A DNA stretch of 30,257 nt from Lachnospiraceae bacterium (GTDB lineage: Bacteria > Bacillota_A > Clostridia > Lachnospirales > Lachnospiraceae). The position numbers and the translations under genes are program-made. Location of the stretch: contig JAGBNT010000075.1 in NCBI GenBank assembly GCA_017634255.1, positions 1 to 30,257 on the forward strand. The letters are read 5' to 3'. Below are positions 2,523 through 6,021 of this stretch, in pieces (position 1 is the first letter of the stretch; every line of letters begins with the position of its first letter). The notes under the pieces were generated by a model that was given only the letters and a program-made list of their open reading frames with translations, was not told the DNA's origin and ran no database searches.

Positions 2523-3638
2523 ATGTATGATTATCTGATTGTAGGCGCCGGTTTATACGGCGCTATTTTTGCGCAACAAATGAAGGAAAGGGGATATAGG
2601 TGTCTGGTAATTGACAGACGAAATCATATAGCCGGAAACATTTATTCTGAAGAGATGCACGGAATACAGGTACACATATACGGACCGCATATTTTCCATA
2701 CAGATTTGGAGAATGTGTGGGAATATGTGAACCGCTTCACATCTTTTAATCATTTCATATATTCTCCTGTGGCGAACTATAAGGGTGAGCTATATAACCT
2801 TCCCTTTAATATGAATACCTTTGCAAAAATGTGGGGAATAGTCACTCCCGATGAAGCGAGGGAGAAAATCAGTGAACAGATTAAGGCAGCCGGAATTACC
2901 GAGCCGGGGAATCTTGAGGAACAGGCAATATCGCTTGTTGGAACGGATATATACGAGAAGCTGATAAAGGGATATACACAGAAGCAGTGGGGAAGACCAT
3001 GTACAGAGCTGCCGGCATTTATCATCAAGCGACTTCCGGTCAGGTTTATTTTTGATAACAACTATTTTAATCACCCTCATCAGGGGATACCTGTTGGAGG
3101 ATATACAGCTTTTGTGGAGAAGCTCCTTGAAGGAACAGAAATCAGGCTGGGAGTAGATTACCTTAAGAACCGCGAAGAGTATGAGAAGCTGGCAAAAAAG
3201 GTAGTCTATACGGGTCCTGTCGATGAATATTTCGGTTATGAATACGGTGCCTTGGAATACAGGAGCCTCAGATTCGAAACGGAAACATTAAATATAGGGA
3301 ATTATCAGGGAATAGCCGGCATGAATTTTACGGATGCCGAAACCCCTTATACAAGGATCATTGAACATAAGCATTTTGAATTTGGCAAAGGGGATCCTGA
3401 TAAGACAGTTATAACACGGGAGTATTCCTGTGAATGGAAACAGGGGGATGAACCTTATTACCCGGTAAATGACGAAAGGAATATGGATCTTTATCGAAAA
3501 TATGAAAAGAGGGCAGAGAGTGAGCCTAATGTTTTGTTTGGCGGGAGACTTGGCACATACAGGTATATGGATATGGACAAGATCGTAGCAGAGGCACTCA
3601 AAGCCTCGGAGAAGGAGGGGAAACAATATAATGACTAA
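2523..3638 (+). CDS. glf: UDP-galactopyranose mutase
   Basis: A 371-residue flavoprotein of typical Glf length. It converts UDP-galactopyranose to UDP-galactofuranose, the donor for galactofuranose-containing surface polysaccharides. The N-terminus DYLIVGAGLYGAIFAQQ is the FAD-binding GxGxxG motif (residues 8-13). It is followed by the RRNHIAGNIYSE segment, the GPHIFHTD motif, and the YTQKQWGRP and LPVRFIFDNNYF segments diagnostic of the family. The gene starts three bases after the galE stop, with an AAGGAG site inside the end of galE, so the two are translationally linked. The epimerase and mutase act in sequence on the same nucleotide sugar. The 3' end overlaps the next gene by 8 bases. 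Confidence 0.95.
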   Translation: MYDYLIVGAGLYGAIFAQQMKERGYRCLVIDRRNHIAGNIYSEEMHGIQVHIYGPHIFHTDLENVWEYVNRFTSFNHFIYSPVANYKGELYNLPFNMNTFAKMWGIVTPDEAREKISEQIKAAGITEPGNLEEQAISLVGTDIYEKLIKGYTQKQWGRPCTELPAFIIKRLPVRFIFDNNYFNHPHQGIPVGGYTAFVEKLLEGTEIRLGVDYLKNREEYEKLAKKVVYTGPVDEYFGYEYGALEYRSLRFETETLNIGNYQGIAGMNFTDAETPYTRIIEHKHFEFGKGDPDKTVITREYSCEWKQGDEPYYPVNDERNMDLYRKYEKRAESEPNVLFGGRLGTYRYMDMDKIVAEALKASEKEGKQYND

Positions 3639-6021
3639 ACCTCAAAAGATAAAACTCTTTGCTTCAGGCAGGCTGTGCCTGTTTGGTGAGCACAGTGACT
3701 GGGCTGGACAGGCCAGGGCAATGAATGCGGAGGTGGAGCCGGGGCGAGCCATAGTGACGGGCATAGAACAGGGAATCTACGCAGAGGCATACAGGAGTGA
3801 AAACTTTGTTCTCATAGACAAGGTGAGCGGTATTGGAGAAAATTCCTTTTCCTGCCAGATGAACAGGGAAAAGCTCAAGGAGGCGGCTCATCAGGGAGGA
3901 TATTATAGCTATGTCTGTGGTGTAGCTTCGTATATGTGTGAATGGTACAGGGTCGGGGGCATCACTGTTGAGATTTACGATCAGGATCTTCCGATCCAGA
4001 GCGGGCTGTCTTCAAGCGCGGCAGTATGTGTGCTCATTGCCCGGGCATTCAACCAGTTATATGATCTTCACCTCAATACAGAGGGGATAATGAATATAGC
4101 GTACTGGGGAGAGCAGCGTACCCCTTCGAGATGTGGAAGACTGGATCAGGCATGCGCTTACGGTGTTGCTCCGGTCGCAATGACCTTTGATGGGCATGAG
4201 GTTGACGTTGAAAGGATACCGGTAAGGGCTAACCTGTATTATGTTTTTGCGGATCTGATGGCTGGAAAAGATACAGTTAGGATACTTGCCGACCTGAACA
4301 GGGGATTTCCCTTTGCCTCGAATGATATGGAGAAGAGGGAGCATGAGGCTCTCGGCAAAGATAATCTGGAAATTACGGAGCGGGCTATGAAGTATATTTC
4401 TTCAGGTGATGCAGAAAAGCTTGGAGAACTTATGGTAGCGGCGCAAGATCTTTTTGACAGAAAGGTTGCGCCCATGTGCCCTCAGGAGCTTACTTCTCCG
4501 GTACTCCATGAGACATTAAAGGATCCCGAGATACAGAAGTATACCTATGGAGGAAAGGGAGTAGGATCACAGGGAGACGGTACTGTTCAGTTCCTTTCAA
4601 AAAATGAAGAGTGTCAGCAGAAGCTTTTTGACTATCTTACAGAGACTAAGGGAATGACTGCCTATAAACTGACTCTGAGACCTAATTCCACTGTCAAAAA
4701 GGCTATAATTCCTGTTGCAGGCTTTGGAACCAGACTATATCCGGCTACCCGAGGGATAAGGAAAGAGTTTTGCCCTGTTTTGGACAGGGATGGACTTATG
4801 AAACCTGTGATCCTTGTTCTTTTGGAGGAGCTGGATGAAGCGGGAATTGAGGAGATCTGCTTTATCATTAATCCTGAGGAGAGGAGGTTCTATGAGGATT
4901 TCTTTAAAAAACCCCTGGCCCTGGAACACTATGAAAATCTAGCTGAAGAGATGAAGCAGTATGAGGAAAAATTTCGACGGATATCAGATAAAGTCAGGTT
5001 TGTATTGCAGACAGAACAGAAGGGATTCGGACACGCGGTCTATCAGGCGAGGGATTTCGCAGGAGACGATCCGGTGATGCTCCTTTTGGGCGATACTATA
5101 TATATCAGCAATACGGATGTTCCATGTACAAAGCAGCTGATGCAGGCTTTTGATACTTATGGGAAACCTATAGTAGCCGTGCATGAGGTTCCGCTTTCAG
5201 ATGTCTCCAGTTACGGTATCTTTGCCGGTGCGTGGGAGGATCAGGGAAGAACGGTCATGAATCTTGACAGGATAGAGGAAAAGCCCTCACCTCAATACGC
5301 AGAGGACTATCTTGGAATGAAAAAGGGAAGCGGCAATAAAAGAAGCTATATGGCGGCATTCGGTATCTACATCCTTACTAAGGATGTTTTTTCAGAACTT
5401 GCTGCAATGTGTCGGGAGAACGAGGAAAGCAGATCAAAGGATGAGGTGGAGCTAACGGTCGCGCTGTCGCACGTGATGCGCTCCTCGGGGATGTTGGCGT
5501 TTCTGCCGAACGGTGAGTCTTTCGACATGGGAAATGTCAGGGCATATCAGGAAACGTTCTGTTATTACGCAGAGAGGAATGGAGACAGAAAAAAGGAGCC
5601 CAAGCCATATCATATAGGCTATGTAGCTGGTGCGTTCGATATGTTCCACATCGGTCATCTTAATCTTCTGCGCAGAGCGAAGGAAAGATGCGATCATCTG
5701 ATCGTGGGTGTGATCTCAGATGAGAGGATGTATGAACTGAAGAAAAAGTATCCCATAATCCCTTGCAATGAAAGGATGCAGGTCGTAAGAGGATGCAGAT
5801 ATGCAGATCAGGTGGAGGAGCTGCCCTTTGGTGATGCCGGGATCATGGATGCATATAACAGGTTTCATTTTGACTGTATGTTCTCCGGAGATGATCACGC
5901 CACGGATCCCGGATGGCTTGCCGAGAGGGAGAGACTGCAGGAGGTCGGATCTGATATCCAGTTCGTATCGTACACGAAGGAGACAAGTTCGAGCATGATC
6001 AGGGAGAAGATGTCCAGATAG
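3631..6021 (+). CDS. Three-domain fusion: GHMP sugar kinase, hexose-1-phosphate nucleotidyltransferase, cytidylyltransferase
   Basis: A 796-residue cytoplasmic protein with three enzyme domains. Residues 1-~345 are a galactokinase-like GHMP kinase: [14 protein letters not shown] (13-26; galactokinases have a similar GRxNxIGEHxDY), the ATP loop [12 protein letters not shown] (120-131), and motif 3 [11 protein letters not shown] (307-317). Residues ~356-640 are a GalU-type nucleotidyltransferase: [20 protein letters not shown] (360-379), LLLGDTI (~484-490), and an EEKP segment. Residues ~660-796 are a glycerol-3-phosphate cytidylyltransferase-like domain: [10 protein letters not shown] (667-676), the [16 protein letters not shown] segment (713-728) and TSSSMIR (785-791). 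The ATG overlaps the 3' end of glf. Inference: the first two domains could turn a free hexose into a UDP-sugar, and the third could make a CDP-activated polyol or amino alcohol. Substrates cannot be read from the sequence. Confidence 0.85.
   Translation: [796 protein letters not shown]

Follow-up and report, generated by a model that had tools for sequence, protein, structure and literature searches.

The gene at 3631-6021 of a 30,257-nucleotide Lachnospiraceae contig (JAGBNT010000075.1; the whole stretch is called the window) encodes a sugar kinase (KIN), a sugar nucleotidyltransferase (NTP), and a cytidylyltransferase (CT) in one polypeptide. This fusion is a real but very rare protein, of which only the CT domain is the new part. 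It is probably best explained as a trifunctional enzyme of surface-glycan precursor supply, in which a CT cassette has been joined to KIN-NTP.

Three enzyme domains in one reading frame

The open reading frame on the + strand begins with ATG and runs as a single 796-residue frame with zero internal stops; neither a stop nor a frameshift, which the sequence-only reading had named as grounds against a fusion, separates the domains in the sequence. The domain search proposed by that reading placed all three domains over the curated Pfam cut-offs: GHMP_kinases_N at residues 94-177 (1.1e-13), NTP_transferase at residues 357-647 (6e-25), and CTP_transf_like at residues 665-793 (1.5e-16). The motif positions it had claimed for the three activities are all correct, and its placement of three enzyme domains in one polypeptide directly after galE and glf is borne out by the three Pfam families together with TIGR01179 and TIGR00031. 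In an alignment of 43 relatives, the KIN and NTP motifs occupy invariant or near-invariant columns. The proposed structural check of key residues was partly possible. KIN and NTP gave good models, whereas CT residues 652-796 have a pLDDT below 50 because CT was present in only two rows of the alignment. An alignment for modeling that added CT-phosphoesterase and MTK-CT proteins (described below) was discarded, as CT was misaligned.

Table 1. Coordinates of the fusion domains and the upstream genes in the window
Feature	Position	Strand	Description
C-terminal tail of upstream gene	2..112	+	cut by contig start; frame SSLGINDEN...PLLPERKCS*
MTK	103..1530	+	475 aa; methyltransferase fold, then kinase-like part; no CT
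galE, UDP-glucose 4-epimerase	1545..2519	+	TIGR01179 465 bits, cut-off 262
glf, UDP-galactopyranose mutase	2523..3638	+	TIGR00031 407 bits, cut-off 304
KIN domain	3631..4680	+	residues 1-350; GHMP sugar kinase, galactokinase-like; Pfam, profile alignment, Foldseek
NTP domain	4693..5565	+	residues 355-645; GalU-like UTP:sugar-1-phosphate uridylyltransferase; TIGR01099 below cut-off, Foldseek
Linker with fusion junction	5566..5601	+	12 residues, precedes YHIGYVAG
CT domain	5602..6018	+	residues 658-796; CTP_transf_like cytidylyltransferase; HxGH at 5647-5658; natural C terminus

KIN-NTP is a widespread two-domain protein

Galactokinases are the best fold matches of KIN (Foldseek target TM 0.76-0.77; 2dei, 0.77). 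A profile alignment to 2cz9 shows the galactokinase GEHxD sugar-binding motif, and a 12-residue stretch of KIN aligns with GRVNLIGEHTDY of the Pyrococcus horikoshii galactokinase. Residues E20, H21, D23, and D172 are invariant in 43 sequences. The NTP domain has a nucleotidyltransferase fold with the GxGTR...KE motif of GalU, and its fold is that of UDP-glucose pyrophosphorylases (Foldseek target TM up to 0.86). A KIN-like domain fused to Hpre_diP_synt_I was also observed (L103); it gives no pointer to sugars.

Proteins with KIN-NTP but without CT, 616-677 residues long, made up 118 of the best 120 of 6223 matches. They occur in Lachnospiraceae, Prevotella, and others, share the domain order of the window fusion, are as much as 85% identical to it across its initial 650 residues, and lack its CT; one of them, P0003, ends ...AYRNTFMNFGSI at the position of the fusion's linker. 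At 42 loci inspected (L001-L042), KIN and NTP share one ORF in 38, none of which (0/38) contains CT. KIN-NTP is thus a widespread two-domain protein without a fixed neighborhood: glf profile matches were found at 3 of 40 loci, galE-family genes at 6, and GT2 genes at 17. Where these proteins are named, the annotation is "sugar phosphate nucleotidyltransferase" or hypothetical. At L001, KIN-NTP adjoins TarI-like and then TarJ-like genes (CDP-ribitol synthesis; labels read from the sequence by eye), the separate TarI-like gene beginning at 10036. An apparent CT remnant after KIN-NTP at this locus matched as far as residue 729 in one comparison and 695, with two TGA codons, in another; it was rejected, the post-stop stretch reading as non-coding in that frame.

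The two domains could act on a sugar other than galactose, with GalE and Glf taking UDP-Gal from elsewhere. KIN fails the galactokinase equivalogs (NF003006, 50/443 bits; TIGR00131, 38.6/226.65 bits) and scores 64.9/163 bits on that for mevalonate kinase, NTP remains under the cut-off of the GalU equivalog TIGR01099 (171.4/326.8 bits), and many KIN-NTP neighborhoods are without galE or glf. Against this, the galactokinase pattern G-R-x-x-L-x-G-E-H-x-D is kept in 10 of 10 aligned KIN domains, the top fold matches of the fusion's KIN are galactokinases, and L037 groups galE (77%) and glf (73%) with a KIN in a DUF4422 fusion and a stand-alone GalU-like gene. We therefore regard a non-galactose substrate as rather doubtful.

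Among solved enzymes, the CT domain is closest to ethanolamine-phosphate cytidylyltransferase

CT scores 61.3 bits on PF01467 (cut-off 21), with FHIGH at residues 672-676. Its best solved relative is an ethanolamine-phosphate cytidylyltransferase (2.1e-22, over two stretches), followed by choline-phosphate and glycerol-3-phosphate enzymes at about 1e-9. CT has the superfamily and the HxGH site in common with these three families but falls well under their cut-offs. Its earlier assignment as a plain TagD type does not stand, since the ethanolamine-phosphate enzyme scores better and the TagD equivalog TIGR01518 gives 48.6/165.4 bits, under the cut-off. The TagD signature, which we take to be RTEGISTT, would have YTKETSSS as its equivalent in the window CT.

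The same scores bear on whether CT is a glycerol-3-phosphate cytidylyltransferase with CDP-glycerol as product. TagD-type enzymes are among its matches (2b7l, 2.1e-9; 1coz, 9.5e-8), and in one related locus (L060) MTK and LicD have another CT and a gene of the GDPD family nearby. That separate CT, however, is fused to a GFO_IDH_MocA oxidoreductase and forms a long, isolated branch of the tree, so two CTs of different substrate are likely at this locus. Together with the far better match to the ethanolamine-phosphate enzyme, this makes CDP-glycerol an unlikely product.

CT relatives are linked to MTK and phosphoesterase

In its relatives CT is the C-terminal part of an MTK protein, part of a phosphoesterase fusion, or both, with no sugar kinase in the close ones. 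Among 145 CT architectures, 106 are MTK-CT, 15 MTK-CT-phosphoesterase, 11 CT-phosphoesterase, 11 CT alone, and 2 KIN-NTP-CT. Judged from these architectures, the natural partner of CT in relatives is the MTK protein, without a sugar kinase. The methyltransferase fold of MTK is clear, and its kinase-like part is suggested by one Foldseek row and conserved residues. The window MTK is a CT-less homologue of the N-terminal part of the MTK-CT proteins. The MTK- and phosphoesterase-linked CT proteins, annotated as "adenylyltransferase/cytidyltransferase family protein," have the same junction but neither KIN nor NTP; the closest of their CTs are 85-87% identical to that of the window, whose C-terminal end resembles that of MTK-CT proteins. 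In a tree of 103 of the 145 CT sequences (those above P0200 left out; many inner forks without resolution), the CTs of the two fusions, P0001 and P0002, group together with support of 100/95, and the CTs that surround this clade are linked to MTK or phosphoesterase.

The near-identical stretch of the CT relatives begins at the fusion junction, before YHIGYVAG. Across 108 proteins, CT is at least 95% identical in 59 pairs, of which MTK is below 50% identical in 39 and at least 80% in 6. All 7 pairs selected for CT of at least 95% and MTK below 50% show the identity step at the start of CT. The fusion thus looks like one more capture of an exchanged CT cassette, and a third enzyme was apparently gained because CT is a part swapped between neighboring surface-sugar genes. 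A broader reading makes CT a mobile 3' cassette that is grafted onto varied upstream enzymes in Lachnospiraceae glycan loci, with the window protein as a working trifunctional enzyme. Recombination at the conserved CT start would place CT onto MTK alleles and here onto KIN-NTP; such swapping would yield new multifunctional precursor enzymes, and the window chain would supply UDP-hexose and a CDP-alcohol. We hold this wider generalization only tentatively, at somewhat less than even chances.

Gene neighborhood and related loci

The MTK gene and galE are 14 bp apart and galE and glf 3 bp, and glf and the fusion gene overlap by 8 bp; this tight spacing is as in an operon, within which the contig start would fall. 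Twenty-two of 34 residues (65%; E 1.6e-13) of the tail at the 5' end match the C-terminal end of the protein preceding MTK in L045 (4001-5371), which was labeled glycosyltransferase-like by eye and with a custom-built profile. Locus L045 contains glycosyltransferase-like genes, MTK (61%), glf (81%), CT-phosphoesterase (80%), and LicD; L044 contains MTK (66%, cut), glf (81%), CT-phosphoesterase (80%), and a LicD piece. Both have the order MTK, glf, CT-phosphoesterase. Their CTs are 80% identical to the window CT, whereas those of other proteins reach 87%. The nearest CT does not come from these loci, so an L045-like operon simply rearranged in place would not account for everything. By Pfam, LicD is present in L045 and L060 and absent from the 20 window ORFs scanned; by profile, it was found at 17 of the 33 loci of L043-L080 with a picked CT ORF.

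Proposed function and origin

In the proposed pathway, KIN would add a phosphate at C1 of a hexose, with galactose the likeliest substrate, and NTP would convert the sugar 1-phosphate and UTP to a UDP-hexose. The earlier suggestion that the fusion makes a UDP-hexose from a free sugar is thus a plausible route, with KIN and NTP in one chain after galE and glf. Next to the fusion, GalE would interconvert UDP-Glc and UDP-Gal, and Glf would make UDP-galactofuranose. CT would activate a small alcohol phosphate with CTP to CDP-X, where X may receive its phosphate from the kinase-like part of MTK, and a LicD-type transferase encoded outside the contig would put X onto the glycan. The gene probably arose once, when a CT cassette was fused in frame, at its conserved 18-residue start, behind a KIN-NTP gene; the end of an MTK protein or the head of a phosphoesterase gene would be the source, as judged from relatives. 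The sequence itself shows the domains, their rarity in this combination, the ancestry of CT, the order of the genes, and the identity step; the substrates, the part played by MTK, the transfer from CDP-X by LicD, and any advantage of a single chain are inferred. Counting against the proposal are the variable neighborhoods of KIN-NTP, the low galactokinase scores of KIN, the Hpre_diP_synt_I fusion of L103, the slender basis for a kinase activity of MTK, the lack of LicD among the window ORFs scanned, and the closer match of CT to proteins other than those of L044 and L045.

Alternatively, an FKP-like kinase-pyrophosphorylase with a TagD-type enzyme could co-produce UDP-hexose and CDP-polyol for one glycan, by channeling or at a fixed ratio. 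In its favor, none of the three active sites appears damaged, and galE and glf adjoin the gene. The KIN-NTP gene beside the TarI-like and TarJ-like genes of L001 also fits, and a pairing with CDP-alditol supply therefore occurs at least one more time. On the other hand, the domain order is opposite to that of FKP, CT is nearer the ethanolamine- and choline-phosphate enzymes, and this CT family travels with MTK and LicD, which leaves this reading as a whole improbable; the fusion may nevertheless couple two precursors of one glycan.

If the preferred reading, a glycan-precursor enzyme extended by a CT cassette, is true, it illustrates how Firmicutes of gut and rumen obtain new enzymes for surface glycans, with one conserved activating domain passing from gene to gene in the loci concerned. 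KIN-NTP would be a named, testable family for UDP-hexose straight from free sugar in anaerobes, and CDP-X a CDP-linked building block common to many glycan loci. Any benefit of the single chain would be open to a ready test with the three-domain protein, namely whether one-chain supply of two precursors alters glycan output.

Occurrence of the three-domain architecture

The same domain order was sought in other proteins, as had been suggested, by three fusion searches covering the best 120 of 6223, 120 of 1308, and 120 of 431 matches. KIN-NTP-CT was found in 2 of the 120 matches listed in each search and, beyond the window protein and P0002, in none of them; the fusion is thus very rare among the matches listed. 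In 397 genomes of one family, with one or two candidates scored per genome, a long match to KIN-NTP occurs in at least 11 and a strong match to CT (E up to 5.4e-41) in at least 26, counts that are lower bounds. None of the matches listed for these genomes places KIN-NTP and CT in one gene, as judged by match ranges; two genomes (G001 and G274) have both, on separate contigs. Viral contigs gave only two CT matches, both weak. A literature search, with most subscription journals outside its reach, found no description of a kinase-nucleotidyltransferase-cytidylyltransferase fusion.

P0002 has 796 residues and the same three domains, is encoded on another contig (6990 bases), and is 87% identical to the window fusion. 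An assembly join is therefore unlikely, and a chance event or one-off assembly chimera is disfavored as the source of the fusion. Although the window is one 30-kb contig, an assembly or sequencing artefact is extremely improbable, since the second contig repeats both architecture and junction with similar divergence across domains (KIN 85%, NTP 91%, CT 86%).

Comparison with known systems

WbdD is an O-antigen chain-terminating methyltransferase-kinase. MTK resembles it in its methyltransferase fold, in the putative kinase-like part after this fold, and in its occurrence in glycan loci, with the difference that MTK relatives carry CT; no WbdD match was among the sequence or fold matches listed for MTK. 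FKP of Bacteroides fragilis, an L-fucokinase/GDP-fucose pyrophosphorylase of 949 residues, begins with the pyrophosphorylase and ends with the kinase (PMC11982464). The zebrafish glucuronokinase/putative UDP-glucuronic acid pyrophosphorylase DrGKUP likewise has an N-terminal pyrophosphorylase and a C-terminal kinase, with no CT described (PMC3938481). DrGKUP and the window fusion both join a GHMP kinase to a bacterial-type nucleotidyltransferase in one chain, in opposite order. The view of KIN-NTP as an FKP variant is not supported, because the order is reversed and KIN-NTP is itself widespread; the window fusion differs from FKP by its kinase-first order, its GalU-type partner, and its added CT. 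With FKP it has in common a GHMP sugar 1-kinase and a sugar-1-phosphate nucleotidyltransferase in one chain, identified here by Pfam and fold with predicted activities, an arrangement for free-sugar salvage.

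The fusion gene and its operon

The sequence-only reading had claimed a sugar kinase, a nucleotidyltransferase and a cytidylyltransferase in one 796-residue frame, and this was borne out by a single uninterrupted frame in which GHMP kinase, nucleotidyltransferase and cytidylyltransferase domains (here KIN, NTP and CT) scored above the Pfam cut-offs. The claimed position after galE and glf also held: glf overlaps the fusion gene by 8 bp, galE lies just before glf with a gap of 3 bp, and the gene for MTK, a methyltransferase fold joined to a kinase-like part, precedes galE by 14 bp. 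Because the spacing is this tight and the contig starts within the gene preceding MTK, the fusion gene closes a series of four or more closely packed genes. The G+C content is 38.6% in MTK, 44.9% in galE, 42.3% in glf, 48.3% in KIN, 46.7% in NTP and 48.7% in CT, with 47.3% for the window; these differences are in keeping with a mosaic origin, short of proof. The three-domain fusion is real and very rare, a variant on the known theme of multidomain sugar activation.

Features of the window and of related loci (L numbers)
Feature	Location	Strand	Observation
MTK gene	103-1530	+	475 residues, without CT
Fusion gene	3631-6021	+	KIN-NTP-CT
Integrase-like protein	6046-7365	+	Pfam phage-integrase N-terminal and central domains, without catalytic-domain match; directly 3' of fusion
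Helix-turn-helix protein	7367-7675	+	weak Pfam matches, below cut-off; after integrase-like gene
Carbohydrate region	10416-19004		genes for GH1 beta-glucosidase and GH94 phosphorylase share a strand, opposite those for a LacI-type regulator and ABC permeases; suggestive of import and utilization of beta-glucan oligosaccharides
KIN-DUF4422	L037:7992-10151		DUF4422 in place of NTP
KIN-like fusion	L103:991-2514		fused to heptaprenyl diphosphate synthase component I membrane domain
TarI-like, then TarJ-like genes	L001:10036-11837		after KIN-NTP; putative labels, from reading of sequences
Unnamed 440-residue gene and TIM-barrel gene	L051:3550-5828		after MTK-CT
Second CT	L060:8762-10108		fused to GFO_IDH_MocA oxidoreductase

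KIN-NTP is a family in its own right

Among the matches listed, 118 relatives other than the two three-domain proteins (P0001 from the window and P0002) have 616-677 residues, comprise kinase and nucleotidyltransferase only, and reach down to 61% identity. Judged by sequence, KIN-NTP is a separate protein family; its hosts are Lachnospiraceae, other Clostridia, Prevotella, other Bacteroidales and one Treponema MAG. A 12-residue galactokinase-like motif is kept in KIN (10 of 10 aligned rows), the best fold matches of KIN are Pyrococcus galactokinases, and those of NTP are UDP-glucose pyrophosphorylases. Since both domains score under the equivalog cut-offs, galactose and UTP are likely substrates, short of proof.

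The neighbours vary: in the 40 loci with a picked KIN ORF (L014 and L015 dropped out at ORF picking), GT2 profiles occur in 17, the galE family in 6 and glf in 3. Separate GalU-like, galE and glf genes stand beside KIN-DUF4422 in L037, a set that fits UDP-galactofuranose supply. TarI and TarJ, whose putative homologues follow KIN-NTP in L001, together synthesize CDP-ribitol.

Origin of the CT domain

With CT alone as query, 118 of 120 proteins among the matches listed were without KIN and NTP. In local comparison most matches had an N-terminal homologue of the window MTK with CT at the end, and some had a calcineurin-like phosphoesterase behind CT; the architectures of 145 CT sequences were MTK-CT (106), MTK-CT-phosphoesterase (15), CT-phosphoesterase (11), CT alone (11) and KIN-NTP-CT (2). 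In a tree of 103 of the 145 (rows numbered above P0200 left out), in which many inner forks are weakly placed, both fusion CTs form one clade (100/95) nested among the MTK- and phosphoesterase-linked CTs, which argues for a single origin from that family.

MTK-CT is further fused to a xylose-isomerase-like TIM barrel in P0205 and to a GT2 domain in P0155, and ORFs similar-looking to the two L051 genes follow MTK-CT in L047, L048 and L050. L060 also holds MTK, two LicD (phospho-alcohol transferase type) genes, a phosphoesterase and a GDPD gene.

One conceivable origin of the fusion is a simple in-situ rearrangement of an operon like those of L044 and L045. L045 reads two glycosyltransferase-like genes, MTK (469 residues, without CT, 61% identical to the window MTK), glf (81%), CT-phosphoesterase and LicD; L044 contains MTK, glf, CT-phosphoesterase and a LicD piece; the window reads gene tail, MTK, galE, glf, KIN-NTP-CT, and its tail resembles the gene preceding MTK in L045 (65% over 34 residues). 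In all three CT thus sits in the gene after glf, with a changed partner. Speaking against such a rearrangement, the CTs of L044 and L045 belong to a different clade and are ~80% identical to the window CT, whereas other CTs reach 87%.

CT as a proposed exchanged cassette

The surprising part is less the three combined activities than the evidence for CT as a cassette exchanged among glycan genes. Pairwise comparison of 108 MTK-CT proteins gave 59 pairs with a CT identity of at least 95%, and their MTK halves are <50% identical in 39 and at least 80% in only 6. MTK and CT identities over all pairs correlate at 0.33 (109 rows, window CT and MTK counted as one pair). In seven pairs chosen for MTK/CT contrast, identity rises stepwise at the CT start, the linker ahead of it being partly raised or noisy in four; in P0156/P0166 it climbs from ~45% to >90% near residue 441 and stays high through the phosphoesterase. 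The window fusion junction, a 23-residue stretch, lies at the same point as this step. Among proteins P0122-P0239, from the search with CT alone, near-identical CTs stand behind widely differing MTK halves and identity jumps sharply where CT begins, both signs of cassette exchange. A difference in constraint alone was rejected as the cause, the same CT identity going with pairs at 33% and 99%.

Proposed function

For KIN, NTP, GalE, Glf, CT and MTK we infer all substrates. KIN would convert a hexose to hexose-1-P and NTP the latter to UDP-hexose, GalE and Glf would supply UDP-Gal and UDP-Galf, and CT would form CDP-X from CTP and the phosphate of a small alcohol X; the solved structure nearest to CT is an ethanolamine-phosphate cytidylyltransferase. 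MTK has a clear methyltransferase fold, its second part is a probable kinase, and since it accompanies CT so regularly, it may well act on the same building block. Profiles detected LicD in 17 of the 33 loci with a picked CT ORF, which suggests transfer of phospho-X onto a glycan; Pfam found no LicD among the 20 window ORFs scanned.

Comparison with known kinase-pyrophosphorylase fusions

The pyrophosphorylase is N-terminal and the kinase C-terminal both in FKP, the bifunctional L-fucokinase/GDP-fucose pyrophosphorylase (PMC11982464), and in the zebrafish glucuronokinase fusion (PMC3938481). Relative to each of them, the domain order of KIN-NTP is reversed.
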